Shown here: positions 566-64,000 of the stretch, in pieces
Position numbering within the stretch: position 1 is the stretch's first letter
How the letters are laid out: every line of letters begins with the position of its first letter
Source of the DNA: a virus
DNA length: 64,000 bases
Reading direction: 5' to 3' (one strand)
Virus record (IMG/VR): IMGVR_UViG_3300030108_006260
Coordinates: 140,605 to 204,604 of that record
The notes under the pieces: model-generated
Seen by the model: the letters and a program-made list of their open reading frames with translations, nothing else
Database searches by the model: none
Told to the model about the DNA's origin: nothing
Program-made: the position numbers and the translations under genes

Positions 566-1324
566 TCAACAACAATCTTCTTCATCAAGCAGGTAAGCTA
601 TAGACCTCAGGCGCTGGGAAAGTGATCGGGAAAAGTGAGATGCTTCTCTCGGGTAACCATCGTTATCGTCTTCTTCAGTGTCACTGTCCTCCTGAGCTTC
701 CTGATCTTCTGTATTAGCTTCTGGTTCCTCCACCTCGGGAATCTGAGGAATAGGAGAAACAGCAGGTTCTTCTAGAGAAGTATCTTCCACAGGAGACTGT
801 GACCAATTAGAAATGGAGTGATGAAGTGCTGCATATATGTGCTTACACCCCATACCTATTCCTGATGGGTTTGTAACCCGTGCAGGGTCTCCTGTGGAGT
901 ATATTATATCAGAAGATCCATACCTACTTAGAGCCCATTCACACACATATCTGAAATACTTACAAGAACATGACACCCATACTGGAGTGTCCGGAGAGGG
1001 CCTTCCAGGAGACACTTCGTTTTGCCTAAGACCTGGAAGAGGAACACCTGCCCATGCAAGGACAACCTTTTTAGGAGCGCCTATTAGTGGCTTTGAGTTG
1101 TCCTCATACATACGAACGCATTGTGCGGTGTATCCCTGTATGAATACAGGTCCCAACTTAGATAGGCGGGAGAACTTAGGAGGTGCGTTCCTGTCGGCTC
1201 CCTCATTTATTGGTTTAATGGTACATCCTGAACTGTACCCTACAATTTTTGGAATTGTGTTGGATAATATCTGACCAGAAGTTAGGGGTCTCAGTCCCCC
1301 AAACGGTGCTCCAAAGACATACAT
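566..1324 (-). CDS. SWIM-like zinc-finger protein with acidic C-terminal region
   Basis: A 252-residue protein. A CxC...CxH pattern (C119, C121, C160, H162) inside VSCSCKYFRY...GCKHIYAAL matches the ligand spacing of SWIM-type zinc fingers, which in other proteins bind DNA or protein partners. The block VSCSC-YFRY recurs in the gene at 49068-49514, so the two are paralogues about 48 kb apart. Residues ~185-225 are strongly acidic (Glu/Asp/Pro-rich, probably disordered) and precede a basic Ser/Arg patch and a C-terminal Cys-Cys. The role is unknown; zinc binding is inferred from ligand spacing. The ribosome binding site is weak (AGG about 6 bases before ATG). Confidence 0.75.
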   Translation of the reverse strand: MYVFGAPFGGLRPLTSGQILSNTIPKIVGYSSGCTIKPINEGADRNAPPKFSRLSKLGPVFIQGYTAQCVRMYEDNSKPLIGAPKKVVLAWAGVPLPGLRQNEVSPGRPSPDTPVWVSCSCKYFRYVCEWALSRYGSSDIIYSTGDPARVTNPSGIGMGCKHIYAALHHSISNWSQSPVEDTSLEEPAVSPIPQIPEVEEPEANTEDQEAQEDSDTEEDDNDGYPREASHFSRSLSQRLRSIAYLLDEEDCC

Positions 1325-1363
1325 ACCGAACCTAAATAATGAAGAGCCTAAACAGGTCCATCT

Positions 1364-1681
1364 TCAAGTAATTTCGGATTCGATCCGAAGTAGTAAAATA
1401 TCCATTAAATAAGAAAAAGACGCACCACAGAAAGAGTACACCAATAAAGCAGGTAACAACCGCTCTACAGGAGGAGTAAGTCCACTAAAATAAAGTAAAA
1501 AGAAAGAAATCCAACCAGAGTGGAAACCTGTACAGAAAGAACAAGAGAGCATTTTCTCCATGAAGGAGGATCTAGATGTGACCCACTCTCGAAAAGGAGT
1601 AAGTAGACTCGCGTCCTTTATAGCAAAGGTTATTCCATACATAGAAAACAGTGTAAGGGCTGACACAACCATGAACGTCAT
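1364..1681 (-). CDS. Small membrane protein with CxFCTGFxxG motif (DUF1360-like)
   Basis: A 105-residue protein with three likely membrane segments (about residues 1-20, 55-68 and 76-98) and a pair of cysteines, C47 and C50, in the motif CSFCTGFHSGW. That motif resembles the conserved block of small DUF1360-type membrane proteins found in phages and bacteria. Their function is not known, so none is assigned. The ATG overlaps the stop of the preceding coiled-coil gene as ATGA, indicating coupled translation. A holin role is possible but has no specific support. Confidence 0.65.
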   Translation of the reverse strand: MTFMVVSALTLFSMYGITFAIKDASLLTPFREWVTSRSSFMEKMLSCSFCTGFHSGWISFFLLYFSGLTPPVERLLPALLVYSFCGASFSYLMDILLLRIESEIT

Positions 1682-2130
1682 CCCTTGCTTGTTTTCTTCT
1701 TAGTAGCCTTCTTAGTAGCCTTCTTAGTAGCCTTCTTAGTAGCCTTCTTAGTAGCCTTCTTAGTAGCCTTCTTAGTAGAGGAAGTAGATTTAGATTGTAT
1801 AAAAACTCCGCCAACCACGTCTAAACTCCATTGGCCGTCTGTCGGATCAATCTCGTAGAAATTCATAAGGTCTTTAGAATAAGACTGTAGTCCTGCGCTT
1901 TTCTCGTGAAGATGAACCTCTATACGTTCAAGTTCTGACTCTAACTCATTTCTGGTATCAGAGTACTTACTCACTAGTTCTTCTAGTTTACGCTCTAGCC
2001 CCCTTTTTTGCAGGGATAGGTGGGTATACCTGTTCTTCTCTTCTGTAATAGAAGAGACATGCTGAGATAAAACGTTTCTTTCCTCTTCTGTGAGAAGAAT
2101 TCGCTTCACTTCTGTGATGCTATCTGTCAT
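1678..2130 (-). CDS. Coiled-coil protein with KKAT-repeat basic tail (histone H1-like tail)
   Basis: A 150-residue protein. Residues 1-75 are heptad-like and charged, predicting a coiled coil. Residues ~120-150 are six to seven repeats of Lys-Lys-Ala-Thr ending KKKTSKG, a composition shared with histone H1 C-terminal tails and bacterial H1-like proteins that bind DNA non-specifically. DNA or RNA binding is therefore inferred, not shown. The start is well supported: AGGAG sits seven bases before the ATG. The gene follows a 76-base gap, the first clear break downstream of the GC-rich island. Confidence 0.75.
   Translation of the reverse strand: MTDSITEVKRILLTEEERNVLSQHVSSITEEKNRYTHLSLQKRGLERKLEELVSKYSDTRNELESELERIEVHLHEKSAGLQSYSKDLMNFYEIDPTDGQWSLDVVGGVFIQSKSTSSTKKATKKATKKATKKATKKATKKATKKKTSKG
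1697..1780. repeat. 12-bp tandem repeat coding for KKAT units
   Basis: Six perfect copies of the 12-mer ttcttagtagcc (plus-strand reading) occupy 1697-1768, followed by a degenerate seventh copy. The period is a multiple of three, so copy-number change would lengthen or shorten the basic tail without a frameshift. Identity at the third codon position shows recent expansion or homogenisation. Confidence 0.95.
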
Positions 2131-2206: not shown

Positions 2207-2642
2207 TCACTCTTCCATAGTAAGGATAGCACTGGCACTAACCATAGCTTCCACCCTTCGGATACGTGAGTTTAGGTCAGCCCTGATAGCTAGAGTGATG
2301 AGATCCCCGCTATTGATTGAAGAGTCTTCAATCAATAGGTACCCTCCACCTGGGGCTTCTTCTGAGAGGGAAAGGGACAAGGAGGCGACCTTCCTAAAGT
2401 CTCCCCCGATACGTTAGAAGAGGACCATCTACGTTTCCCTGTATCACATTTTCAGTGTGGCTGTCCCCGTCCATAGTCACACCGGGTCCAAGTATAATTC
2501 GATGTCCGACTGGAAGTCGTATCTCAGAGCCAACTTTCCAGTGGCCGTGAGGCACGTAGATGACACCTGAGGATGAAGCGGCGCCCAATTGCTCAGGCCG
2601 TGTGATAGGTGCATGACCTCTATATTCACTATATTTAGGCAT
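2207..2642 (-). CDS. Pectate-lyase-like tail-spike fragment, complete only with a frameshift
   Basis: The first frame starts at an ATG at 2642 that overlaps the preceding stop (TGATG). It encodes about 82 residues with a motif typical of the N-terminal part of right-handed beta-helix (pectate-lyase-like) spikes (GVIYVPHGHWKVGSEIRLP, then ILGPGV), then stops at TAG 2394-2396. A second minus-strand frame is open from 2413 to a TGA at 2207-2209, with protein-like content (SLSLSEEAPGGGYLLIEDSS) but no start codon or ribosome site near its beginning. The two frames meet at a run of five G (plus-strand C5, 2403-2407). Removing one G would join them into one protein of about 144 residues. It may be a real indel, a sequencing error, or two unrelated fragments at the edge of an inserted island. 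It is far shorter than functional spikes of this fold. Confidence 0.5.
2310..2338. repeat. Perfect 14-bp inverted repeat with 1-base centre
   Basis: Arms 2310-2323 and 2325-2338 are exact reverse complements around a single base. The element lies inside the second frame of the broken spike gene and has no U-tract, so it is not a standard terminator. Its place at the left edge of the GC-rich island suggests a protein-binding or recombination site, which is inference only. Confidence 0.85.
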
Positions 2643-3015
2643 CAATCTTCTTTTTCTATGAATGTTCCGTCATGGGAAACAAGCGGTTGGTAGTCGTCAT
2701 CCAGCACATACTCAGGCGAGTGCAGGGGGTACATGGGGGGGTTGGATCGCTGGGGCTCTTTGGCCTGTTCATCGCCTCGGTCGTCACATCGATCAGGTTC
2801 TCGATGGCCTCCACAGCCGTAGCTCCTGCGGCACTCCAGTGGTAGCACATGGCATAGTAGTCGGAGCTGACGATCATGTAGATGCGTTCGGTGGGGAAGC
2901 GAATCCCCGTACGCTGCAAGACCAACGCTACGAGGTCCTGCGCCACCTCTTCAGCAACAGCGAGGTCAACTGCGGAAGCAGTGTACCCTTCTTTGATCTG
3001 GAGATCGAACGGCAT
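2642..3015 (-). CDS. Hypothetical protein read through a C7 slippery tract
   Basis: The ATG at 3015 overlaps the stop of the lectin-like gene (TGATG). The frame starts MPFDLQIKEGYTASAVDLAV and is convincingly protein-like up to KSPSDPTPP at a run of seven C on the coding strand (plus-strand G7, 2735-2741). In the original frame it then ends with an implausible Cys/Met/Thr-rich tail at 2656. In the -1 frame it continues MYPLHSPEYVLDDDYQ... and ends at a TGA that again overlaps the next ATG as TGATG. The heptamer C CCC CCA fits the X XXY YYZ pattern of -1 slippery sites. The -1 product is about 124 residues of unknown function. Options are programmed frameshifting, phase variation, or a missing base in the sequence. 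Confidence 0.6.
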
Positions 3016-6000
3016 CAGGTGCTTCCCTTGCTGAATCCGTAGATGTTGTCGAGCCACTCCCCGAGGAGCACATGCTCGGCATCTGTGAGGATGCGATCGA
3101 AGATGAACGTCTGGCCCATATCGACGCCGGAGTCGAGAGTTGTACCGTCCGGGTCAGCGAGGATTGACCATCCGTAGCTGCCGTTGTAGATGAAGCTCCC
3201 TCGCATCGAGAGGTCCTCCGCCACGCTCCCGCGCAAGACACCATCCTCATATACCGCTGCGGTGTGTGCCTCGGCGTTATACTCGCCACGGTAATAAATG
3301 GGGGCTGTGGATGTCTTGGCGTTCACACTGGAAGGGCCGGCGCCTGATGACTCTTCCACTTGGATCAAAACGTTGGTCGCGTTGGTGCGGAAGCGGTAAC
3401 CGGCACCCGAGCCAACACGGTTGCTGATCAAGACGCCATTGGTTCCCGAGCTTACGGCTGCGACAGTGACGGTCGTATAGCTGGTGCCTCCTCGCCGGTT
3501 GAGACGACCAGTACGGACCTCTTCGAGGAAACCAGTGCCATCGGAGGTGAACGTCGGGAGGTTGTTGAACGCAGCCGTGGTAGCATCCAGACCAAGGCGG
3601 GTGCCGGCGTCCGTCTGCTCAAAGTGGTTGCCATACAGCGAGCGATCAGGTGCAAAGTCCACACCCCCGTCCAGGGTTGCGTAGGCAGGGTCTATCCAAG
3701 CCACCAGCCCTTGGATCATCAGGGGGTTCCAGTCCAGAGCGAAAGCCTGCTGGTACTCCAGCATCTTTGCGGCGAGCTGGTTGGGCGTGAGCGCACCCGC
3801 AAAGCCGTCAATCAAGCGGATATTACCTATCACCTGCCGTGTGCTGTTCGCTCCAGCGAGGGCGTTACCGATCACGGGAGTCGTGTTTTGCCCGACTGCT
3901 TGACTACTCCAGCCCGTGCCGTCCTCGTGGTAGGTGTCCGAGTTCTGGATCAAGAGCGTGTGCCCCTGGTAGGTGACTTTATCCTCGATGTCGTGGTTGA
4001 ACACGAGAATGCTCTCTGTCGACGCGGTGTCGATGTCTGAGTCGATGAACGAGCCGTAGTAGCCACCAACGACGGGGGTGGGCTGTGTCGAGTCGTTGAT
4101 GCTAGACAAGATCATGCTGCCTGCCGTGATCACACGATGGTCATCAGTGCCGTCTGCTGGGTCCGGCTCCATGACGGCCAGCAGCGTCGCAGTGCCGCCT
4201 CCTCGCTGGGCTGTGTTGCTCGTGAGATCCTGCACCGTTCCACGATCGAAGTACATGGCGTCGCCGCCATCGGCGAAGTAGCCAGCAGAGTATGCGGGGC
4301 CTGCCGTTGCGGGGGTCCATGTAGCGTCGCCCTGACGCGCACGGTCAGGGATCGAGGTGATGATGTTGCTGCCATCGTAGGATGCATCCTCGGCGTACAC
4401 CGAGAGCATCGGGTAGTCCTGGACGAATCCATCAGCTACGAGGTCTTCGTAATACTGTGAGATCTCTTCCTGCGACTGGGCGTAGCTAACGCATGCGACC
4501 TTACCAATCCGTCCGCGGTACTGACGAGACGTTGCGAAGCTGGCGTATCCGCCACCGATGCCGAGGTCTCCACCGAAGTCCGCGTCCTCGCCTTCCCCAA
4601 CGTTGACTCCGCAAGTGCCCACGAACTCGCCATCCACGTAGATGCGAGCGATACCGTTGGTGCCCCGAACGACAGACAGGAGACATGCGCTGGTAGGCAT
4701 GCGGAGTGGATTGCCAATGTGATCATCAGCTTCACGGAAGCTGCCGTCATAGATGCCGACACAGAGGTCGTTGTCGTAGGCGCTTTGGATGATGAAACGA
4801 CCGGACTGCATGTCGATTACGCGCAGGTCGTCGTCGTACTTCTCCGTCTGCAAGAGCATGTGCCACGTCCGGCCGCCCATGGGGTGATCGTTTAGCGTGC
4901 CGAAGAAGTCGACCGCCGTAGCGTCCCAGTACATCGCGGGGAAGTCATCGCCAAACACGTTGGCTTCGTAGAACGGACCCGAGAGGCTTGCACCGCCGGT
5001 GAACACAACACCCGTTGCGCGGTCGATGACCTCGGTGATCTCGCCAGACGTAACGGTGGCGTCACGTGCATCGACGTCGAGGATCGGCGAACGACCATCG
5101 GTGTGCCAGTGTCCCCACCCATACGCACGTGCCATAAGCCTCTCAGTCTCGGTCAGCTCGCGGGAGAAGATCGTGGTCTGGCACCACTCCATGTTCGGAG
5201 TGCGGTTGTCTGTGGGGATGGCGAAGCGCTGGTTGTTGGGGTGGCCGGTTGCAGCAGGGCTGCCTGTGCCTTCATTGCCAAGGAAATCAAACGTCCCGGC
5301 AGAACCATCCCATGACCCGATGAAGGATGCGGCGTGTCGCTTCGTAGTGTGCGCCCCGCCATTCGTGGCCTCTGGGTAGAAGATGACCTGGGTTGGCGTC
5401 TCTCGGATCTGCGGGTAGTTGCTATTGCCGTTGTACTGAATCCAACGCGCAGCGTTCTCTTCGGCCACTACGCGGCCGTAGTAACAGACGCTGAACGCGT
5501 TGAGCGTACCACCTACGTCGAGGGCATCGATGCGGTACTCGTTACCCGTACCGCCTCCGTCTGGCTGAAATCGCACGTACGGCCGGCCGCTAGAGCCGAA
5601 CCCGCTCATCAGCTGCGCCGTGTTGGTTCCAACATCGAGCAAATCGTTGCCGTTGACGGTGCCCGTAAGCTCGTCGACATCCGTGCCCGTAACCACAACG
5701 TTCTCCGCATCCCACGACTCGATGCAGTCGCTCCATTCTTGCGGTGCGCTGTCAACATTGGGGAAGTTGCGCTTGATCGCTGCACGCACATCGGCACGCT
5801 TCGCGGCATCATGGAGCCCATCATAGATGGCCAAAAATCGGAACTTAGTGCTCCACGTCTGAGCGGTGTCGAGGCCACCGATGGAGACGTAAGTCGAGCC
5901 CGCCAACGCTGACTGCCATACGCCAGCATATTCGGCGTGGCCATCGTCTTGGATCAAGACGCTATCGTGGTATCCACGGCGATCGCCGACGCTGTCCTTG

Positions 6001-6665
6001 CCGCTAAGGGTGTAAACGTTGAGGTCCATCGCGGACGGAGGCACGACACCGAATGAGTTGTACCCCGACGTCAGCACCTGAGCGTTGCCCGTGCTTGCGA
6101 CACACAGCGCCAATCGGTTGCTGCTCTGGTACAGCTCACCAATGAACTCGCGTGAGGCATAGCTCGCAGCGTTGTCCACGAGGCAGTACACGGTGTACTC
6201 ACCTGACGTGTACTCCGGGACGATGTTGGCGTTCGCGGCCTTCAGCGTGCCTGCACCCACAAAGCTAACGTAAGCTCCTTCGCTGTCCGTGCCTGTGGTC
6301 GGGCTTGCTCCCGATTCTGTGAGCGTGTAGCTGTACTCGGAGCGGCTGGGGATGCCGGAAAAGGCTACGTAATCTGTAGCGTCCGCCCACACAAGCGCAT
6401 TGCTCTTGATCGTACCCGTGACGTCAGTGTTGCCGCCTGAGGTTGCCGTGATCGTATCGCCCACCGTGATCGCAGGGATGACAATGATCGAGCCTGTGCC
6501 CAGTACCTCAGAGTCCGACGTGCGGGTCCAGGTGTAGTTGGACCCATCGCCTCCGGAAGCCGTAAGTGTCTCGCCCTCGGTTTCGGTTCCGCTAATCGTA
6601 ACTGGCCCTGCGGCAGCAACTTCTCCACCGCCAATGAGGCCCGCAAGCTGTCCAGGGTAGATCAT
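3015..6665 (-). CDS. Multi-domain lectin-like (LamG/ConA-fold) receptor-binding protein
   Basis: A 1,216-residue protein. Residues ~15-75 look like a bacterial Ig-like domain (VTISGTETEGETLTASGG...). The rest is four to five repeated modules of the LamG/concanavalin-like type, each with the pattern of a Trp- and Asp-rich start, Y-x-D-G strands and a closing R-x-G-x-IG or F-x-G block followed by a short helix (e.g. RIGKVACVSYAQSQEEISQY; LTPNQLAAKMLEYQQAFALD). Such modules bind sugars or host surfaces, so adsorption is the likely role. Its ATG overlaps the stop of the upstream fibre gene. Codon use and base content are clearly GC-richer than flanking genes, a sign of recent transfer. No enzymatic residues were identified. 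Confidence 0.75.
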   Translation of the reverse strand: MIYPGQLAGLIGGGEVAAAGPVTISGTETEGETLTASGGDGSNYTWTRTSDSEVLGTGSIIVIPAITVGDTITATSGGNTDVTGTIKSNALVWADATDYVAFSGIPSRSEYSYTLTESGASPTTGTDSEGAYVSFVGAGTLKAANANIVPEYTSGEYTVYCLVDNAASYASREFIGELYQSSNRLALCVASTGNAQVLTSGYNSFGVVPPSAMDLNVYTLSGKDSVGDRRGYHDSVLIQDDGHAEYAGVWQSALAGSTYVSIGGLDTAQTWSTKFRFLAIYDGLHDAAKRADVRAAIKRNFPNVDSAPQEWSDCIESWDAENVVVTGTDVDELTGTVNGNDLLDVGTNTAQLMSGFGSSGRPYVRFQPDGGGTGNEYRIDALDVGGTLNAFSVCYYGRVVAEENAARWIQYNGNSNYPQIRETPTQVIFYPEATNGGAHTTKRHAASFIGSWDGSAGTFDFLGNEGTGSPAATGHPNNQRFAIPTDNRTPNMEWCQTTIFSRELTETERLMARAYGWGHWHTDGRSPILDVDARDATVTSGEITEVIDRATGVVFTGGASLSGPFYEANVFGDDFPAMYWDATAVDFFGTLNDHPMGGRTWHMLLQTEKYDDDLRVIDMQSGRFIIQSAYDNDLCVGIYDGSFREADDHIGNPLRMPTSACLLSVVRGTNGIARIYVDGEFVGTCGVNVGEGEDADFGGDLGIGGGYASFATSRQYRGRIGKVACVSYAQSQEEISQYYEDLVADGFVQDYPMLSVYAEDASYDGSNIITSIPDRARQGDATWTPATAGPAYSAGYFADGGDAMYFDRGTVQDLTSNTAQRGGGTATLLAVMEPDPADGTDDHRVITAGSMILSSINDSTQPTPVVGGYYGSFIDSDIDTASTESILVFNHDIEDKVTYQGHTLLIQNSDTYHEDGTGWSSQAVGQNTTPVIGNALAGANSTRQVIGNIRLIDGFAGALTPNQLAAKMLEYQQAFALDWNPLMIQGLVAWIDPAYATLDGGVDFAPDRSLYGNHFEQTDAGTRLGLDATTAAFNNLPTFTSDGTGFLEEVRTGRLNRRGGTSYTTVTVAAVSSGTNGVLISNRVGSGAGYRFRTNATNVLIQVEESSGAGPSSVNAKTSTAPIYYRGEYNAEAHTAAVYEDGVLRGSVAEDLSMRGSFIYNGSYGWSILADPDGTTLDSGVDMGQTFIFDRILTDAEHVLLGEWLDNIYGFSKGST

Positions 6666-9600
6666 GGTGTATACGTGAAGTCGCCAGAAATGGCAACGTC
6701 TCCTGATCCATAGTAGAAAAACGTTACGGCTGTGTTACGGCTCACGTGGCTGTACGATCCTATGGACGAGTTCTGTGCCTCACCTCCGTGAATTGTGACC
6801 CCTACTCCTGCAACAAAAGTGACTTCCAAACCTGCGTTGGCGATCCAATGTACATAAGATGTTCCTGCGGTGCCCGACTCTATAGTGATGCTTCGTGTAA
6901 GATCTGTCCCTGTATGGACAACCCACTGGTTGTTGTTACTGTCATTCAGGGCGTCGGTACCTCCTGCATATGCTGTGTCATCAATGTCAAGCACCTCCAT
7001 TCGGATGTCAGCTTTAGAGGCCAACTTGGTGTCCGTGTCGTCCCGGACCTCGACTATTGCTGCCTGGACATCTGTGGAGGTGATATCTCCATCTGGGTCG
7101 AACACCAGCGAGTCGGCATCTGTCGTGTCAGTGTCTGTAATGACAAGCTGGGCGATTCCTCCCCCTAGGGGGTTTGACACAACTACACCTGATCCACTAA
7201 CATAAAAAGACGTTGCTTGTATTACAGTCTCTCCTCCCTCAAGAGGACTTTGCCCATTTACTACATTGATATATTCAATCTTACTATCGTCAGGAGAAAC
7301 CTGAATGGCCCATACCCTCGTGGAGGTCTCCCATACAATCTTCCAAACTACGTCTCCTGTAACACTAGTGGCTTTGAGTATGGTTCCACCATCCAGTGTA
7401 GTAGCTGTGACTCCAGATCCGTCATCAAGGTCATATCCGGCTGTTCCCTGTATGTGTACGTAGCACCAGTCTCCCGCAGTTCCGGCGTCGACAGTAATGG
7501 AAACGTCAGGACCGTCGTCATTTGCAGTGTAAACTCTGTATGTGGCACGAGTAGTATCATCAATAGTGTCTGATGTTCCTGATACCGACACTACAGTTAG
7601 AGCAGTCTCCGTTCCAGGAAACTCTTGTCCAGAATTGAAAACAATGTCCCCAGTCATGGTACCGCCTGTCCTCATAAGAGCACCAGCAGTAGTAACATTT
7701 GCAGTGTCAGTTACATCAGCACCTGGTTCGATTGTGTCCAGCTTGGACCCATCCACAGACAGGTCCCTACCATCAAATGTCTGGGCACCACTGAAGGTAA
7801 TGTTACCTGTCATAGTGCCGCCAGTTAGCATAAGAGCGCCTGCGGCAGTTACGTTGGCAGTGTCCGTTACATCAGCCCCGGTTTCAATGGAATCCAGTTT
7901 AGATCCATCTACAGACAGGTCCCTACCATCGAATGTCTGAGCACCACTGAAGGTAATATTACCTGTCATGGTACCTCCGGTGCGCATAAGAGCACCTGCG
8001 GAGGTAACATTAGCAGTATCGGTCACATCAGCACCAGATTCGATGCCGCTTAGTTTTGATACATTTGCGTCGTGGGCTGTCTTGTCTGCCGCACTCATGA
8101 AGCCTGCGGCACCCGTGGTAGCTACTGCGTGCTGCGTTCCTCCTCCTCGCGTGCCGTGTTGGGAGTCGCTTGCTAATATTCCTACCTGTATGTCATTTGC
8201 ATTAACTGCTATAGATCCGTCTGCATTGGCTATTACGTTTAGGGTACGATCAGTAGAAAGTGTCCCTCCTCCCGTAAGACCTGCCCCCGCAATAATTTGC
8301 GTGGATGTGTCTACTTTTGAGGAAAGTTTAGTGTCAGTGTCGTCCCGTACCTCTACGAGGGCATCCTGGACATTGGTAGATGTAATGTCCCCGTCAGGGT
8401 CGAACACTATGAGGTCAGCGTCAGTTGTTCCGCCTCCACCCACAGATGCTATTGCAGAGTCTATAGTATCAAGTATAGACTGCAAGTCATCAACGGCAGA
8501 TCCACCTATTGTGGTCCAAGAAGGGTCGTCATACACTCCTACTGCGTATGAACCTGCTGTTACAGCACCAGTAGCATTGAGTTGAACACTGGGATTGCCT
8601 GACGCCCCTACCACTTCTGTATGGAAAAGTGTAGTAGGTATAGAAGAGGTGCCAACGGTTATAGAGGCAGTGTCTGACTGTCCTATCTGAATGTCACCAT
8701 TAGTAGAGGTTCCGGTTCCAGCTCTGATGACGGTATCACCTCCTGTGGAGGACCCTCCTGTGGCATCACCTGCTTGTAATATTAGACTTCCGGCAGTGGA
8801 GGACGCAAAAGTAGTATCTCCACCTTGAACAGTAAGAGACCCTCCATCGGATGAGGTAGACGAACCACCCGACAATAGGATGTCAGTCCCATTTAGACCT
8901 AGTAAGGAGGTGGATGTGAGATTTAGAGAAGAGGTCCCGTCCGCTACTGATAAAGCAACACTACTAGAGGGAATGGTAAGATCAATTGCAGGACCCGTGG
9001 TTGATCCTCCCATAATGATATTAAGGGCATTTCCAGATCCTGTCGCTGTCCTGTTTAGGGATAGAAGATCGAATCCAGCAACACCTCCATCATTAAAAAT
9101 TAGGGGATCTGAGGACGGTACATCCGCTTCATTGTCTGTAGGGGCAGAAGTTATGACTGTATTGAGATCGGAGGCAGCAACAACGGAAGTAGGTACCTGA
9201 GACCAATCTGTAGCGGGTGCTCCAGTCTTTATCCAGGCAGTTCCGTTTGAAGCAAACGCAAAGCTACCAGCATTGGCCTGAATGCCTGTGCCAGCTCCCG
9301 GATCTGACACCGTTGTAATTATGGATAGGTTAGGTATACCACCGGCACTAGAGGATAGCAGAATGGGTGAAGAGGCGGCAGGAGCACCACCAACACCAGA
9401 GTCGGAAGTAGGAGCAGAGTTGACAGTAAGTACTCCCGTACGAGATATTGTCATTCTCTCGTTAGCAGCACCTGCTCCACTTCTCCATGCTGCAATATTT
9501 GTAGCAGACCCTGACTGAGTTAAATCCGAAGCAGCACCAGATCCAGAAGAGTTTACGGATAGACCAACGCCTGTAGAACTAGCGCCCATGGTGACACTTA

Positions 9601-10375
9601 GGCCCGACCCTCCTACTGATGAAGACGGACTCTTGTTCAACTCTAGAAGGTTGTGTGTGCCAGTTCCGTCCGTGTGAGCTATAGACAGTGCCGTGTCTAA
9701 GGCAGATGTGTCTATAGACTGTCCCTGATCATAAGCATCTTGAAGGTCTATAACGGGGGCAGCACCCACTGTAGTGATGAACTTCTCCCAGTCGGTAGCA
9801 AGTGCCCCTGTCTTCATCCATAGAGACCCATCCAAGTTAAGAAGAAGGGAGCCTTTAGGCGCAGGAAACCCTGTTGCATCTGGATCACCTGTGCCTGTTC
9901 CTATTAGAATATGGGCTGTTCCGTTTGAACCGAAAGAAGGGGTGTCTGAGGGGTCCAGTATAAGGCCAGCGGAGTAACTGAAGTCAGTAGAGTTATCGGA
10001 CCAACCCCGTGCCAATGTCGTAGTATCAGAAGAATCTCCCCCCAGAACAACACTAGAGTTTATGATGTGAGGGCCACCTGATAGGTTAACTGCCCCTTGT
10101 ACTTCTAGGTCACCCGATAGGATCCAGTCTCCATCAAATGTTCCTACAAAAGTACCGGCCACATTAGATATGTCCAAAATGGAGTTAGCAGCTCCATCTT
10201 GTAGATCAAACAAAGTCCCCCCAGGACCTATTGCAAGGACAGGACTTATGGTAAAAGGAGTAGAGCCTCCCGAGGGACGGTAGGTACTCATGAGTAGAGC
10301 GTCAGATGTAGGGTTAGCCTGGCGCTGAGTAGTGATAGTAGGTATGTTTATACCTAGGAACTTTAAATCAGCCAT
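6662..10375 (-). CDS. Long repeat-containing tail fibre protein
   Basis: A 1,237-residue Ser/Thr/Gly/Asp-rich protein with little Cys, typical of trimeric fibre shafts. The middle carries three copies of a 52-residue unit containing GADVTDTANVTSAGALMRTG and DGRDLSVDGSKLD. The same unit is used about ten times in the plus-strand fibre at 58411 onward. Two copies of a module ending in SLWMKTGALATDWEKF or TAWIKTGAPATDWSQ lie in the first third. The C-terminal part has two related domains (about residues 960-1060 and 1150-1237) with NTAVTFFYYGSGDV-like beta strands. The ATG has AGGA about 5 bases upstream. It is translationally coupled to the lectin-like gene (ATGA), so the two may build one adsorption device. 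Confidence 0.8.
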   Translation of the reverse strand: MADLKFLGINIPTITTQRQANPTSDALLMSTYRPSGGSTPFTISPVLAIGPGGTLFDLQDGAANSILDISNVAGTFVGTFDGDWILSGDLEVQGAVNLSGGPHIINSSVVLGGDSSDTTTLARGWSDNSTDFSYSAGLILDPSDTPSFGSNGTAHILIGTGTGDPDATGFPAPKGSLLLNLDGSLWMKTGALATDWEKFITTVGAAPVIDLQDAYDQGQSIDTSALDTALSIAHTDGTGTHNLLELNKSPSSSVGGSGLSVTMGASSTGVGLSVNSSGSGAASDLTQSGSATNIAAWRSGAGAANERMTISRTGVLTVNSAPTSDSGVGGAPAASSPILLSSSAGGIPNLSIITTVSDPGAGTGIQANAGSFAFASNGTAWIKTGAPATDWSQVPTSVVAASDLNTVITSAPTDNEADVPSSDPLIFNDGGVAGFDLLSLNRTATGSGNALNIIMGGSTTGPAIDLTIPSSSVALSVADGTSSLNLTSTSLLGLNGTDILLSGGSSTSSDGGSLTVQGGDTTFASSTAGSLILQAGDATGGSSTGGDTVIRAGTGTSTNGDIQIGQSDTASITVGTSSIPTTLFHTEVVGASGNPSVQLNATGAVTAGSYAVGVYDDPSWTTIGGSAVDDLQSILDTIDSAIASVGGGGTTDADLIVFDPDGDITSTNVQDALVEVRDDTDTKLSSKVDTSTQIIAGAGLTGGGTLSTDRTLNVIANADGSIAVNANDIQVGILASDSQHGTRGGGTQHAVATTGAAGFMSAADKTAHDANVSKLSGIESGADVTDTANVTSAGALMRTGGTMTGNITFSGAQTFDGRDLSVDGSKLDSIETGADVTDTANVTAAGALMLTGGTMTGNITFSGAQTFDGRDLSVDGSKLDTIEPGADVTDTANVTTAGALMRTGGTMTGDIVFNSGQEFPGTETALTVVSVSGTSDTIDDTTRATYRVYTANDDGPDVSITVDAGTAGDWCYVHIQGTAGYDLDDGSGVTATTLDGGTILKATSVTGDVVWKIVWETSTRVWAIQVSPDDSKIEYINVVNGQSPLEGGETVIQATSFYVSGSGVVVSNPLGGGIAQLVITDTDTTDADSLVFDPDGDITSTDVQAAIVEVRDDTDTKLASKADIRMEVLDIDDTAYAGGTDALNDSNNNQWVVHTGTDLTRSITIESGTAGTSYVHWIANAGLEVTFVAGVGVTIHGGEAQNSSIGSYSHVSRNTAVTFFYYGSGDVAISGDFTYTP
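7640..8060. repeat. Three ~156-bp tandem fibre repeats
   Basis: Three in-frame copies of a unit of about 156 bp (52 codons) start near 7680, 7835 and 7992 in plus coordinates. Their DNA is similar but not identical. Each matches the inner unit of the plus-strand fibre in length and protein sequence. Confidence 0.8.
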
Positions 10376-10456: not shown

Positions 10457-10852
10457 CTAGTTTGTGGTCAGACCCACAATAACTGCACTTCCTGCTACCC
10501 CAAGTACAAGACCTAACCCAAACATAAACCAGGTACCGTTTTTATCCCACCAGGACTCTGTGGATAAAGAATCTATCCTAGAACGTTGTTCCTCTATGAA
10601 CTCTTCATAGAGACGTGCCTCCAGTTGAAGCTGGCTCCTCAGAAGCGAGTTTTCTTGAGTCAGGCGAGGAACAGCCGCATCATTTTCTAAGGAGAGGATG
10701 AAATCCTCCTCTGTCATCAATATTCCAGAAAAGGGAGCAGGTGACCCTTCTGCTAGAGGTGACGTAAGACGAGGGCCATCTTGTGCTAATGCAAAAGATG
10801 GTATGAGAAAAAAAAGCAGTAAGTAAGATATAAAAGTCTTCAAGGGTTCCAC
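10457..10852 (-). CDS. Signal-peptide and C-terminal membrane-anchor protein, spanin-like
   Basis: A 131-residue protein beginning with a GTG. Residues 1-23 are a typical Sec signal (hydrophobic core, then ALA before Gln-Asp). A short conserved-looking Pro block (SPLAEGSPAPFSGILMTEED) follows, then a heptad-rich coiled coil (~60-100) and a C-terminal membrane helix (~106-127, Gly-rich). Similar small proteins with this PAPFxG-ILxTEE block occur in lysis regions of other phages and are thought to act in envelope disruption. That assignment is by recollection of the pattern and remains tentative. It overlaps the gene upstream by 13 bases. Confidence 0.6.
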   Translation of the reverse strand: MEPLKTFISYLLLFFLIPSFALAQDGPRLTSPLAEGSPAPFSGILMTEEDFILSLENDAAVPRLTQENSLLRSQLQLEARLYEEFIEEQRSRIDSLSTESWWDKNGTWFMFGLGLVLGVAGSAVIVGLTTN

Positions 10853-11190
10853 CAGTCTGGCTTAGCTACACCAACATCCTTAGGATGGGGTCCCTTACGC
10901 CTCTCTTTATGAGGAAGCGCTCCTACTGGGAATCCTGTGAAGGAAGCGGACGAGTCATCGTCTTCTGCTTCTTCAACTTCCTGGTCATCATCCTCACTAG
11001 ATGATTCCTCTTCATCAAATGGATAGTTACCAGACTCTATATCTTCCTCAAGACCGTCATCTATAAGTTTAATTGTGTCAGTTGCTGCTAATAGCACAGA
11101 CGCCCTAAAAAGCCTACGTGCAATAACATGATAGCCCCTATCATGGGCAACCTTTGCTACTTTTTCTAATTTCAGACTAACTTTAATCAT
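10840..11190 (-). CDS. Hypothetical protein with acidic middle and basic C-terminus
   Basis: A 116-residue protein. The first 45 residues predict two amphipathic helices (KLEKVAKVAHDRGYHVIARR). Residues ~50-82 are Glu/Asp/Ser-rich and probably disordered, and the end is basic and Pro/Gly-rich, finishing WWNP. No family was recognised. It lies between two membrane proteins of the possible lysis group and overlaps both, so it is probably co-translated with them. Confidence 0.65.
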   Translation of the reverse strand: MIKVSLKLEKVAKVAHDRGYHVIARRLFRASVLLAATDTIKLIDDGLEEDIESGNYPFDEEESSSEDDDQEVEEAEDDDSSASFTGFPVGALPHKERRKGPHPKDVGVAKPDWWNP

Positions 11191-58410: not shown

Positions 58411-61400
58411 ATGAGTTTAAAGGTCAGAATAACTAATAAGACCCGCAGTATAATAGCGGTGAACAAGGTCAAGAGGAAAGTACCGCCTTTAAGTACTACT
58501 ACTTTTGAAATTAGTATATCAGACCTTGACGTACTTAGGCCATTCCTGCTTTCTCATAGGGAAAAGGGCCAAATAGACTTTGATGTTTTTAATGACCCGG
58601 GGTCTGTGGACAGCAGTGACACTGAACTTGTTACACTAGCGGACATACCTGACGTAATACCGGGAGGTGGAGGATCATCTGACGCATTAGATATATCCTA
58701 CGATAATACTGCATCAGGATTAACAGCTACCAACGTAAAGGAAGCCATTGACGAAGTGGTATCCGCAGGGGGCTCCGGAACGGACAACCAGACAGCGTCT
58801 GAAGTTCCTTTCACACCTGCTGGTAACCTGACGTCCACTAATACTCAAGCTGCGTTAGAGGAGCTAGATGCAGAAAAAATAGATGTTGCTCATTTAGGGA
58901 CAGGAGGTGCAGCACACGCTAGTGCCACTACCAGCACTGCTGGCTTCATGTCCTCTACGGACAAAGTTAAACTAAATAGCATAGAGTCCGGTGCTGACGT
59001 AACAGACACTGCTAACGTCACGTCAGCCGGAGCGCTCATGCGCTCAGGCGGAACCATGACCGGCAATATTGTCATGTCTCCGTCACAAACAGTAGATGGC
59101 AGAGATCTGTCTGTAGACGGTGCCAAGTTAGATGGAATAGAGCCTGGAGCGGACGTAACAGACGCATCGAATGTCACTCTTGCTGGAGCGCTCATGCGTA
59201 CTGGCGGTACCATGACAGGTGATGTGGTATTTAGCGGGAGTCAAACATTCGACGGTCGTGATGTGTCCGTTGATGGATCCAAGTTAGATGGCATAGAACC
59301 AGGAGCCGAAGTTAACACAGTGGATACTGTGTTCGGACGCACCGGAAATGTAGTTGCAACAGCAGGAGACTACGAAGCAAGCGAGGTTAGCTATGACAAC
59401 ACTACTAGCGGACTAACAGCTACTGATGTTAAGGCCGCTATTGATGAGGTAGCAGCAAGTGTAGGAGGGGGAGGAACTGACGACCAAACAGCAGCCGAAG
59501 TACCTTTTACACCCTCCGGAAATTTATCGTCAACAGATGTACAAGATGCCCTAGAGGAGCTGGACTCTGAGAAGTTATCAACCACCCATGCAGGAACGGG
59601 CGGTACTTCCCATGCAAATGCCACTACCGGCACTGCTGGCTTCATGTCTAGTGGAGACAAGACTAAGCTAAACAGTATAGAGACAAACGCTGACGTAACG
59701 GACACCGCTAATGTCACGTCAGCCGGAGCGCTTATGCGCTCTGGCGGCACTATGACAGGCAATATTGTTATGTCAGGCGCCCAGACGGTAGACGGAAGAG
59801 ACCTGTCTTCGGACGGTTCCAAGTTAGACGGTATCGAGTCCGGTGCTGACGTAACAGACACTGCTAATGTCACTTCAGCCGGAGCGCTCATGCGCTCAGG
59901 CGGAACCATGACGGGTGACATTGTATTCAATGCCAGTCAAACGTTTGACGGTAGGGACCTTTCAGTAGACGGGTCCAAGCTAGATGGGATCGAGCCTGGG
60001 GCTGAAGTTAACACGGTAGATACAGTTCATGGAAGAACTGGTGACATAGTTGCTGTTGCTGGAGATTATTCAGCAGACGAAGTCAGCTATGATAACGCAA
60101 CGTCAGGACTAACAGCCACTGACGTCAAAGCAGCTATTGACGAGTTAGCTGCGAGCGGAGGAGGGGGAGGTACCGATGACCAGACAGCAGCAGAAGTACC
60201 ATTTACTCCCGCAGGAAACATAGCAGCAACTGACGTCCAAGATGCTATAGAAGAACTAGACTCTGAGAAGCTATCAGCTACCCACGCAGGAACAGGAGGA
60301 GCTGCCCATTCAAATGCCACTACTGGCACTGCTGGCTTCATGTCCAGTGGGGATAAGACTAAACTAGACGGTATCGAGTCCGGTGCTGACGTAACAGACA
60401 CTGCTAATGTCACTTCAGCCGGAGCGCTCATGCGCTCTGGCGGAACTATGACAGGCAATATTGTCATGTCTGGTTCCGAGACAGTAGATGGACGAGATCT
60501 ATCTGTGGACGGTGCTAAACTAGACGGGATAGAGACAAACGCTGACGTAACTGACACCGCTAATGTCACGTCCGCTGGAGCGCTTATGCGCTCTGGCGGA
60601 ACTATGACAGGAAACATTGTCATGTCTGGAGCAGAGACCGTAGATGGACGAGATCTATCTGTGGACGGTGCTAAGCTAGACGGGATAGAGTCCGGAGCTG
60701 AAGTTAACACAGTAGACACTGTTCATGGACGAACAGGAGATGTTGTCGCCGTAGCAGGAGACTATGCAGCAAGTGAGATTAGCTACGACAACACCACTAG
60801 CGGACTCACAGCAACAGACGTAAAAGCAGCTATAGATGAGGTTGTAGCAAGTGCAAGTACCGATGACCAGACAGCAGCAGAAGTACCATTTACTCCCGCA
60901 GGAAACATAGCAGCAACTGACGTCCAAGATGCTATAGAAGAACTCGACTCTGAGAAGCTATCGGCTACCCACGAAGGAACAGGAGGGGCGTCACACGCTA
61001 ATGCCACTACAGGTACTGCTGGTTTCATGTCTAGCGGAGACAAAACTAAGCTAAACAGCATAGAGTCAGGGGCGGATGTAACGGACACTGCTAATGTTAC
61101 ATCAGCTGGAGCGCTAATGCGTTCCGGGGGGACCATGACTGGCAATATTGTCATGTCTGGAGCAGAGACCGTAGATGGAAGAGACCTATCGGTCGACGGG
61201 TCCAAACTAGACGGGATTGAACCTGGAGCTGAGGTCAATACAGTAGACACTGTTTTCGGCCGAACAGGTAATATAATAGCAGTTTCTGGTGATTATGCAG
61301 CGAGTGAGGTCAGCTACGACAATACTACGAGCGGACTCACAGCCACTGACGTAAAAGAAGCTATTGATGAGTTAGCTGCAAGTGGTGGATCGGGAACTGA

Positions 61401-64000
61401 CGACCAGACAGCGGCAGAAGTTCCATTTACCCCCGCTGGAAACATATCTGCAACTGACGTACAAGATGCCATAGAAGAGCTGGACACAGAGAAACTAGCA
61501 GCTACCCACGAAGGAACAGGAGGCGCGTCACATGCTAACGCAACTACCGGCACTGCTGGCTTTATGTCCAGTGGGGACAAGACTAAACTAGACGGTATTG
61601 AGTCCGGAGCGGATGTAACAGACACTGCTAATGTCACTTCAGCTGGAGCACTCATGCGCTCAGGCGGCACCATGACGGGTGACATTGTATTCAATGCCAG
61701 TCAAACGTTTGACGGTAGGGACTTGTCTGTAGATGGCGCAAAACTAGACGGCATAGATCCAGGTGCTGAAGCGAATACAGTAGACACTGTATTCGGAAGG
61801 ACAGGAGACATTGTTGCTGTTGCAGGGGACTATGCAGCGAGCGAGGTTAGCTATGACAACACAACGAGCGGCCTCACAGCCACTGACGTAAAGGCAGCTA
61901 TCGATGAGGTTGCTAGCTCTGTAACCGATGATCAGACGGCACTTGAGGTTTCCTTCACTCCGTCCGGAAATATAGCAGCGACAGATGTACAGAACGCTAT
62001 AGAAGAACTAGACTCTGAGAAGCTAGCGGCTACTCACGAAGGAACAGGCGGGGCTTCCCATGCGAATGCTACTACTGGCACTGCTGGCTTCATGTCTAGC
62101 GGAGACAAGACTAAACTAGATGGCGTAGAGGCGGGAGCGGATGTGACAGACACTGCTAATGTCACGTCATCCGGAGCGCTTATGCGCTCTGGCGGCACCA
62201 TGACAGGCAATATTGTCATGTCTAGCACAGAGACAGTAGACGGACGAGATCTATCTGTGGACGGTGCCAAGCTAGACGGAATTGAATCAGGGGCAGAGGT
62301 AAATACAGTAGACACTGTTTTTGGAAGAACAGGAGATGTAATTGCTGTTGCGGGTGACTATGCGGCAGAAGAAGTCAGTTACGACAACACCACGTCTGGT
62401 CTTACAGCAACCGACGTCAAAGCAGCTATTGACGAGGTAGCTGCTAGCGTAGGAGGGGGTACGGACGACCAAACAGCGGCAGAAGTCCCATTTACTCCTG
62501 CGGGGAACATAGCTGCAACAGATGTCCAAGATGCTATAGAAGAACTAGACTCTGAGAAGCTATCAGCTACCCACGAAGGAACGGGAGGAGCGTCACACGC
62601 AAATGCCACTACGGGTACTGCTGGTTTCATGTCTGCTACAGACAAAGTTAAGTTGAATGGCATAGAGTCCGGTGCTGACGTAACAGACACTGCTAACGTC
62701 ACGTCAGCCGGAGCGCTCATGCGCTCAGGCGGCACCATGACCGGAAATATTGTCATGTCAGGTGCCCAAACTGTAGATGGAAGAGATCTGTCGGTGGATG
62801 GCGCCAAGCTAGACGGAATTGAATCGGGAGCGGAAATAAATACAGTAGACACCGTTCACGGAAGAACAGGTGACGTGGTTGCTGTTGCAGGGGATTACTC
62901 TGACTCTGACATCAGCGTAGATCCTTCTGGATTTAACGTAATCAGTTCGTCCGCAACTACACAAGCTCTCTATAACGCAGAAAATGACGCACGTCTTCTC
63001 GACGCTAGGTCCTCCGGAGTCAGGTTCTTCGACGGATTTGGATCAACAGGAGGCACTACAATAGCCGTTGGGGCAGGGTCAGGAGTTACATTAGATTTAT
63101 CAACTGACCCTGTAAGCTATGCGACTCCTTCGTGGGGGGCCCAAACCCTAACTCCCCCTGCTAGCCAGATTAGTTTCTTGATATGCGATTCGGCAGGCAC
63201 ACTTTCATGGCTGTCAGCCGAGCCGACACCATCACAACGTAGAACATCCGTACTTATTGGAACCGTAGCTACTCAAGGAACCACCATAACGGCTGCAATC
63301 TCGAACGCAATGCCCGTTCGTAACTCCATTCAGCAACTCCGAGATATGATGGAGGGTATGGGTAAGGTTAGGTTAGGGACAGGAACTGTCCCTCAACCTG
63401 TTACATCGACACTGGGATTTACTGTAACCTCAGGTTCTATTCTGGTTCCTGGAATTTCAGTTGCATCAAACCCCAACAACCCTCACTCTTTTGTGTATCC
63501 AGGGTCTGCTTCTCCTGCTTCTTTTCAATATGCCACACCCTCAGGGTCTGACGGTGTAACTAGAACCGCAATAATACCTGACCAATACTGGAACGGTAGT
63601 ACGTTGGTAACGATAGGAGGAAACTCCAACAGGGCAGCAATACATACAATATATTTGTTCCCGTCTAGCAATATACGAGTAGCTAGGCCACAGCAGTTCT
63701 ACTCTTCTATGTCAAGGGCACTTAGTGCCTTAGCTACACGCATATACACTACCCCTGCTGGTTATGAAGCTAACGGTTTTATCGTAGGTTACATCATAGC
63801 CAGAAGGAACGCTACAAACCTGGCTTCATCTTCGGATGCTCTATTTGTGTCAACAAACCAGTTTGGAGGAATTGGAGGAGGAACAGCAGGTATTATACAG
63901 GGAGTTACTAGCGTTAATGGTCAGGCGGGACCAGCTGTAACCCTAAACGAGTTTGTATCGGACGTGTTCCGCGTACAGGACAACACGGACACAACAAAAA
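58411..64000 (+). CDS. Giant repetitive tail fibre, partial at right edge
   Basis: The frame is open from the ATG at 58411 to the window end, at least 1,863 codons, the only plus-strand gene. The first 58 residues share a module with the gene at 57846-58220. Then seven supermodules follow (58695 to about 62900), each containing ISYDN...LTATDVKAAIDEV, DDQTAAEVPFTP, EELDSEKL, HANATTGTAGFMSSGDKTKL, and one or two 52-residue units with GADVTDTANVTSAGALMRSG. After them is a unique domain that ends with VNGQAGPAVTL, typical of tail fibres. Composition is Ser/Thr/Gly/Asp-rich without Cys in the repeats. No ribosome site is obvious, so the start rests on the shared N-terminus. Likely host-recognition or long structural fibre. 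Confidence 0.85.
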   Translation, partial: MSLKVRITNKTRSIIAVNKVKRKVPPLSTTTFEISISDLDVLRPFLLSHREKGQIDFDVFNDPGSVDSSDTELVTLADIPDVIPGGGGSSDALDISYDNTASGLTATNVKEAIDEVVSAGGSGTDNQTASEVPFTPAGNLTSTNTQAALEELDAEKIDVAHLGTGGAAHASATTSTAGFMSSTDKVKLNSIESGADVTDTANVTSAGALMRSGGTMTGNIVMSPSQTVDGRDLSVDGAKLDGIEPGADVTDASNVTLAGALMRTGGTMTGDVVFSGSQTFDGRDVSVDGSKLDGIEPGAEVNTVDTVFGRTGNVVATAGDYEASEVSYDNTTSGLTATDVKAAIDEVAASVGGGGTDDQTAAEVPFTPSGNLSSTDVQDALEELDSEKLSTTHAGTGGTSHANATTGTAGFMSSGDKTKLNSIETNADVTDTANVTSAGALMRSGGTMTGNIVMSGAQTVDGRDLSSDGSKLDGIESGADVTDTANVTSAGALMRSGGTMTGDIVFNASQTFDGRDLSVDGSKLDGIEPGAEVNTVDTVHGRTGDIVAVAGDYSADEVSYDNATSGLTATDVKAAIDELAASGGGGGTDDQTAAEVPFTPAGNIAATDVQDAIEELDSEKLSATHAGTGGAAHSNATTGTAGFMSSGDKTKLDGIESGADVTDTANVTSAGALMRSGGTMTGNIVMSGSETVDGRDLSVDGAKLDGIETNADVTDTANVTSAGALMRSGGTMTGNIVMSGAETVDGRDLSVDGAKLDGIESGAEVNTVDTVHGRTGDVVAVAGDYAASEISYDNTTSGLTATDVKAAIDEVVASASTDDQTAAEVPFTPAGNIAATDVQDAIEELDSEKLSATHEGTGGASHANATTGTAGFMSSGDKTKLNSIESGADVTDTANVTSAGALMRSGGTMTGNIVMSGAETVDGRDLSVDGSKLDGIEPGAEVNTVDTVFGRTGNIIAVSGDYAASEVSYDNTTSGLTATDVKEAIDELAASGGSGTDDQTAAEVPFTPAGNISATDVQDAIEELDTEKLAATHEGTGGASHANATTGTAGFMSSGDKTKLDGIESGADVTDTANVTSAGALMRSGGTMTGDIVFNASQTFDGRDLSVDGAKLDGIDPGAEANTVDTVFGRTGDIVAVAGDYAASEVSYDNTTSGLTATDVKAAIDEVASSVTDDQTALEVSFTPSGNIAATDVQNAIEELDSEKLAATHEGTGGASHANATTGTAGFMSSGDKTKLDGVEAGADVTDTANVTSSGALMRSGGTMTGNIVMSSTETVDGRDLSVDGAKLDGIESGAEVNTVDTVFGRTGDVIAVAGDYAAEEVSYDNTTSGLTATDVKAAIDEVAASVGGGTDDQTAAEVPFTPAGNIAATDVQDAIEELDSEKLSATHEGTGGASHANATTGTAGFMSATDKVKLNGIESGADVTDTANVTSAGALMRSGGTMTGNIVMSGAQTVDGRDLSVDGAKLDGIESGAEINTVDTVHGRTGDVVAVAGDYSDSDISVDPSGFNVISSSATTQALYNAENDARLLDARSSGVRFFDGFGSTGGTTIAVGAGSGVTLDLSTDPVSYATPSWGAQTLTPPASQISFLICDSAGTLSWLSAEPTPSQRRTSVLIGTVATQGTTITAAISNAMPVRNSIQQLRDMMEGMGKVRLGTGTVPQPVTSTLGFTVTSGSILVPGISVASNPNNPHSFVYPGSASPASFQYATPSGSDGVTRTAIIPDQYWNGSTLVTIGGNSNRAAIHTIYLFPSSNIRVARPQQFYSSMSRALSALATRIYTTPAGYEANGFIVGYIIARRNATNLASSSDALFVSTNQFGGIGGGTAGIIQGVTSVNGQAGPAVTLNEFVSDVFRVQDNTDTTK
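58695..62900 (+). repeat. Seven tandem fibre supermodules
   Basis: Supermodules start near 58695, 59389, 60084, 60781, 61312, 61848 and 62377. The first three are about 695 bp and hold two 156-bp inner units. The last four are about 530 bp and hold one. Long near-identical stretches occur, such as about 70 bp shared by 59825-59897 and 60365-60437, and 54 bp shared by 59905-59958 and 61669-61722. This shows recent duplication or gene conversion. Confidence 0.85.

Follow-up and report, generated by a model that had tools for sequence, protein, structure and literature searches.

A change of coding frame at a C7 tract in an orphan tail-region gene of a jumbo phage, probably ordinary rather than a programmed switch

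Introduction

Homopolymer slippage is a well-known switch of surface proteins (PMC3711429). For frame transitions in orphan genes, the GeneTack study expected overlapping genes to account for 33% and sequencing errors together with indel mutations for 67%, an indel mutation being more likely when the break is close to the 3' end (PMC3711429). In two sets of phage chaperone genes, the distance from the slippery site of programmed -1 frameshifting to the 0-frame stop averages 26-36 nt (PMC10885494). In E. coli, A-site codons of the CCN type shift less on average than UUN and AAN, and shifting is also weaker where a codon mixes purine and pyrimidine bases than where it is homogeneous (PMC4066793).

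Here we analyse a small gene from a virus record of 240,443 bases, lying in the part of it that forms the 64,000-nucleotide stretch under study (the window). The record carries genes of a contractile-tail phage, including those for baseplate J, a UvsX-like recombinase, ribonucleotide reductase and a protein with an M23 peptidase domain. A preliminary description of the window proposed that a C7 slippery site decides which C-terminus of the small protein is made, by programmed frameshifting, by phase variation of an adsorption gene, or through a missing base.

Results and Discussion

Genomic context

The genes of the window lie on the minus strand, except at its end (58411-64000). The gene containing the C7 tract is located at the distal end of the tail operon, behind two large proteins. 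The first of them (6662-10375) has a weak match to Phage_spike, while the second (3015..6665, minus strand) is a presumed adhesin or fibre of 1216 aa without a family match, with a GC content of 58-62% versus about 45% for most of the window; its stop codon overlaps the start of the C7 gene by one base. The plus-strand end of the window (58411-64000) is occupied by a long ORF. Its antisense ORFs are similar to the ones found opposite the gene at 6662-10375, which suggests that it may be a fibre gene related to the latter. Other features of the record include a protein of 150 aa with a tandem repeat of the ATKK type at its end (window 1678-2130, minus strand) and a DNA polymerase of family A that has a uracil-DNA-glycosylase domain at its N-terminus and contains an intein with a LAGLIDADG endonuclease (L007:3057-7205, minus strand).

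Gaps of ten N bases are present at L007:19791-19800, L008:17412-17421 and L013:3781-3790 and 10845-10854 of the record, and one such gap ends directly ahead of the first base of the window; the record is therefore a scaffold. The gaps suggest assembly from short reads.

Switch of coding frame in the C7 gene

The C7 gene is a small ORF of 119 aa on the minus strand (2656..3015), starting at ATG 3015 and ending at TAG 2658-2656. The C7 tract itself (2735..2741; G7 on the plus strand) contains the heptamer C_CCC_CCA. The -1 frame has no stop between 2950 and the TGA at 2644-2642, with GTG 2848, ATG 2734 and GTG 2707 as its only usual start codons, and its part beyond the tract (2642..2734, minus strand) encodes MYPLHSPEYVLDDDYQPLVSHDGTFIEKED.

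Frames were scored with a periodic Markov model trained on the other genes of the phage. Frame 0 is preferred until about 2750, and frame -1 beyond the C7 tract. For the 76 nt beyond the tract the scores are -9.4 in frame 0, -0.8 in frame -1 and -19.5 in frame +1. A score as low as that of the frame 0 tail is found in only 0.08% of true coding windows, and the difference of 8.6 between frames -1 and 0 is reached in none of 5110. A second model, for which the two GC-rich neighbours served as training genes, gave a tail difference of 11.6, compared with a maximum of 7.5 in 2365 windows. Off-frame sense windows that are both open and score as well as the -1 tail make up 0.7% of cases. Since the scores of both models agree, the switch of frame is real at the level of the consensus sequence, and the earlier statements that the ORF is protein-like up to the tract and that only the -1 frame is so beyond it are borne out.

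The point of the switch coincides with the only G or C run of at least 7 nt in about 204 kb of the record, scanned in pieces. A shift at a C4 run about 15 nt upstream would give an equally plausible peptide, so that, as judged from the sequence, the exact shift point is not fixed between the two runs. Elsewhere in the window the coding frame shifts at gene junctions only, with no further mid-gene break seen; the other frame-change calls inspected were scaffold gaps or overlapping genes.

The -1 frame ends as had been described, the last base of its TGA being the A of the next ATG (2642). The accompanying claim that every other junction in the operon overlaps is incorrect, as this holds for 23 of the 51 listed same-strand junctions, and the argument that overlapping junctions require the -1 frame was rejected on this ground. 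The 0-frame stop leaves a gap of 13 nt before the next gene, which is ordinary because gaps of 0-30 nt are common among same-strand junctions. Arguments from Shine-Dalgarno sequences were dropped, start sites in this phage matching little better than random positions. Overall, the described observation largely holds and is partly confirmed, while its interpretation is only partly supported.

Relatives and predicted structure

No significant match to the C7 gene was found in IMG/VR viral contigs (queried with its N-terminal part, the adhesin, a downstream gene and the next gene), in a scan of viral contigs with a DNA pattern in which the length of the tract could vary, or by tblastn in phages. 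Searches of PDB, Pfam and PHROGs gave no significant match for its product, and neither a homologue in GTDB genome contigs nor a paralogue in its own record was found. Among phages, IMG/VR, GTDB genomes and its own record, the gene is thus an orphan singleton; only the baseplate J gene recovered two distant contigs (30%). Structure models built from single sequences were of poor quality, with mean pLDDT values of 53 and 41; a low-confidence one places a beta-alpha-beta-beta-alpha core at residues 4-81, ahead of the C7 tract. The designation as a putative adsorption gene derives from the position beside the presumed adhesin, the product having no family or structure match.

The next gene

The ORF that follows (2394..2642, minus strand; ATG 2642, stop 2396-2394) encodes 82 aa with a weak likeness to the start of a pectate-lyase tailspike (E 0.06 in Pfam, 0.2 in phages). 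It is overlapped by 20 nt, at a G5 run, by a +1-frame stretch that is open for 68 codons with coding-like scores (2207..2413, minus strand). This may be a second, opposite (+1) frame break at the G5 run, or a separate small ORF from TTG 2380; the AlphaFold model of the read-through protein was of low confidence and did not decide between the readings. If the second break is real, neighbouring genes would carry indels of opposite sign, a sign of either decay or consensus problems confined to this region. The +1-frame stretch also contains an inverted repeat (window 2310-2338) with perfect arms of 14 nt and a loop of 1 nt, of a class for which about 0.2 would be expected by chance per 64 kb.

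A probable one-base change in the C tract

The best reading, which we hold with moderate confidence, is that the C tract of this orphan gene has contracted by one base, either by mutation or by consensus error. The tract would be one C shorter than an ancestral or sibling form, and the lost C would put the last ~30 codons of the gene out of frame. The main product would then consist of the ~90-residue N-terminal part followed by a meaningless tail of ~26 residues, and the downstream gene would start normally. We infer both that the frame switch originated by an indel and that the C-terminal tail is dispensable.

In support of this reading, the coding frame changes where the scanned sequence has its longest C/G run, as would be the case if a homopolymer in a gene without relatives had undergone a simple indel or carried a consensus error. 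Against it, no relative with an in-frame tract, and hence no longer ancestral tract, was found in the searched data; moreover, C_CCC_CCA is in the correct register, and the -1 frame stops neatly at the next ATG. Among the three options first proposed, the one with most support is that a base is missing, whether in the phage or for technical reasons, given the switch at C7, the orphan gene and the GeneTack proportions.

A real, perhaps polymorphic, replication-slippage mutation is favoured over a local consensus error because the break lies at the sole C/G run of this length and near the 3' end of an orphan, and because of the GeneTack proportions and the N gaps. In particular, an artefact of long-read sequencing at a homopolymer was judged less likely than a real indel, since the gaps suggest a short-read scaffold and few other breaks were found.

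Alternative explanations

Three alternatives are each less likely than the one-base contraction: an overlapping mini-ORF, phase variation and programmed frameshifting. In the case of a mini-ORF, the 0-frame protein would have its own tail and the -1 frame would be a separate ORF of 30 aa starting from ATG 2734, directly behind the C tract. Ribosome-binding sites are weak throughout the phage, so that a missing one says little, and roughly one in three frame transitions of orphan genes is a gene overlap (PMC3711429). On the other hand, only 0.1% of coding windows score as poorly as the 0-frame tail, and it is improbable that a gene of 30 aa lies buried inside another; we regard this explanation as unlikely.

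Slightly less probable is phase variation, in which the tract would gain or lose bases in replication and the phage population would be mixed, an adsorption-region protein having one or the other of two C-terminal tails. The tract is the longest of its kind scanned and occurs in a gene adjoining the presumed adhesin, but seven C's are short for this class, no length variant was found in the viral contigs scanned with the tract-length pattern, and a literature search found no example in a phage tail gene.

The more general proposal that a switch at the C tract, replicative or ribosomal, gives two C-terminal forms of a small adhesin-adjacent jumbo-phage protein and so tunes adsorption appears doubtful, a shade more so than phase variation. 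A true switch would mean that the phage diversifies its adsorption apparatus via a homopolymer. On the present evidence, the case calls for caution, since coding DNA often contains in-register slippery heptamers, and when the frame of an orphan gene is broken the usual cause is an indel, an error or overlapping genes.

Programmed -1 ribosomal frameshifting on C_CCC_CCA would yield the short and long forms in a set ratio. The heptamer at 2740 is in register with the 0 frame and within the overlap, and the -1 frame is coding-like and ends at the next start; this part of the original proposal stands. By the E. coli rules, its A-site codon CCA is a poor shifter (PMC4066793), and the slippery site lies 76 nt from the 0-frame stop. 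In-register X_XXY_YYZ heptamers are also common in this phage, with 59 in 56,244 coding nt, or about one per 950. No stimulatory structure was predicted downstream, RNA folding being no better than that of shuffles (z -0.02 to -0.5) in a prediction of pseudoknot-free folds, and such a structure is frequent but not obligatory for -1 frameshifting. Conservation is the strongest argument for recoding, and the searches gave no relative in which to compare the frame transition. With the common heptamers, the missing fold, the CCA codon and the distant stop, programmed frameshifting is the least probable explanation, very unlikely here.

A second candidate frameshift in the record

Two overlapping ORFs on the minus strand elsewhere in the record (L015:8-1368, about 100008-101368 of the record) form a stronger candidate for programmed frameshifting than the C7 site. 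The ORF at 568-1368 (minus strand) is overlapped in the -1 frame by one of 220 codons (8-670), in which no ATG, GTG or TTG lies close to the overlap, and C_CCT_TTT at 598 is the only in-register X_XXY_YYZ heptamer found there. A long ORF directly downstream (L014, 17630 onward) could be a tape measure. The pair, which resembles the lambda G/GT arrangement, may thus encode tail chaperones; its proteins and that of the downstream ORF have no family match, and since none of them does, the candidate is a lead only.

Comparison with known systems

The C7 gene shares with the phage tail assembly chaperone genes G/GT a -1 shift at a heptamer in a gene of the tail region. It differs in lying at the distal, adhesin end, whereas G/GT lies upstream of the tape measure, and in having a -1 extension of only ~30 aa. 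With the phase variation of surface genes by poly-C/G tracts it has in common a C tract in a gene of the host-recognition region, but its tract is only 7 nt long and without known length variants. The closest parallel is provided by the orphan frameshifted genes of GeneTack (PMC3711429), with the same frame transition near the 3' end in a gene without relatives; here it falls at a homopolymer, and no difference from that class was established. The frame change at the C7 tract is probably ordinary rather than a programmed switch.
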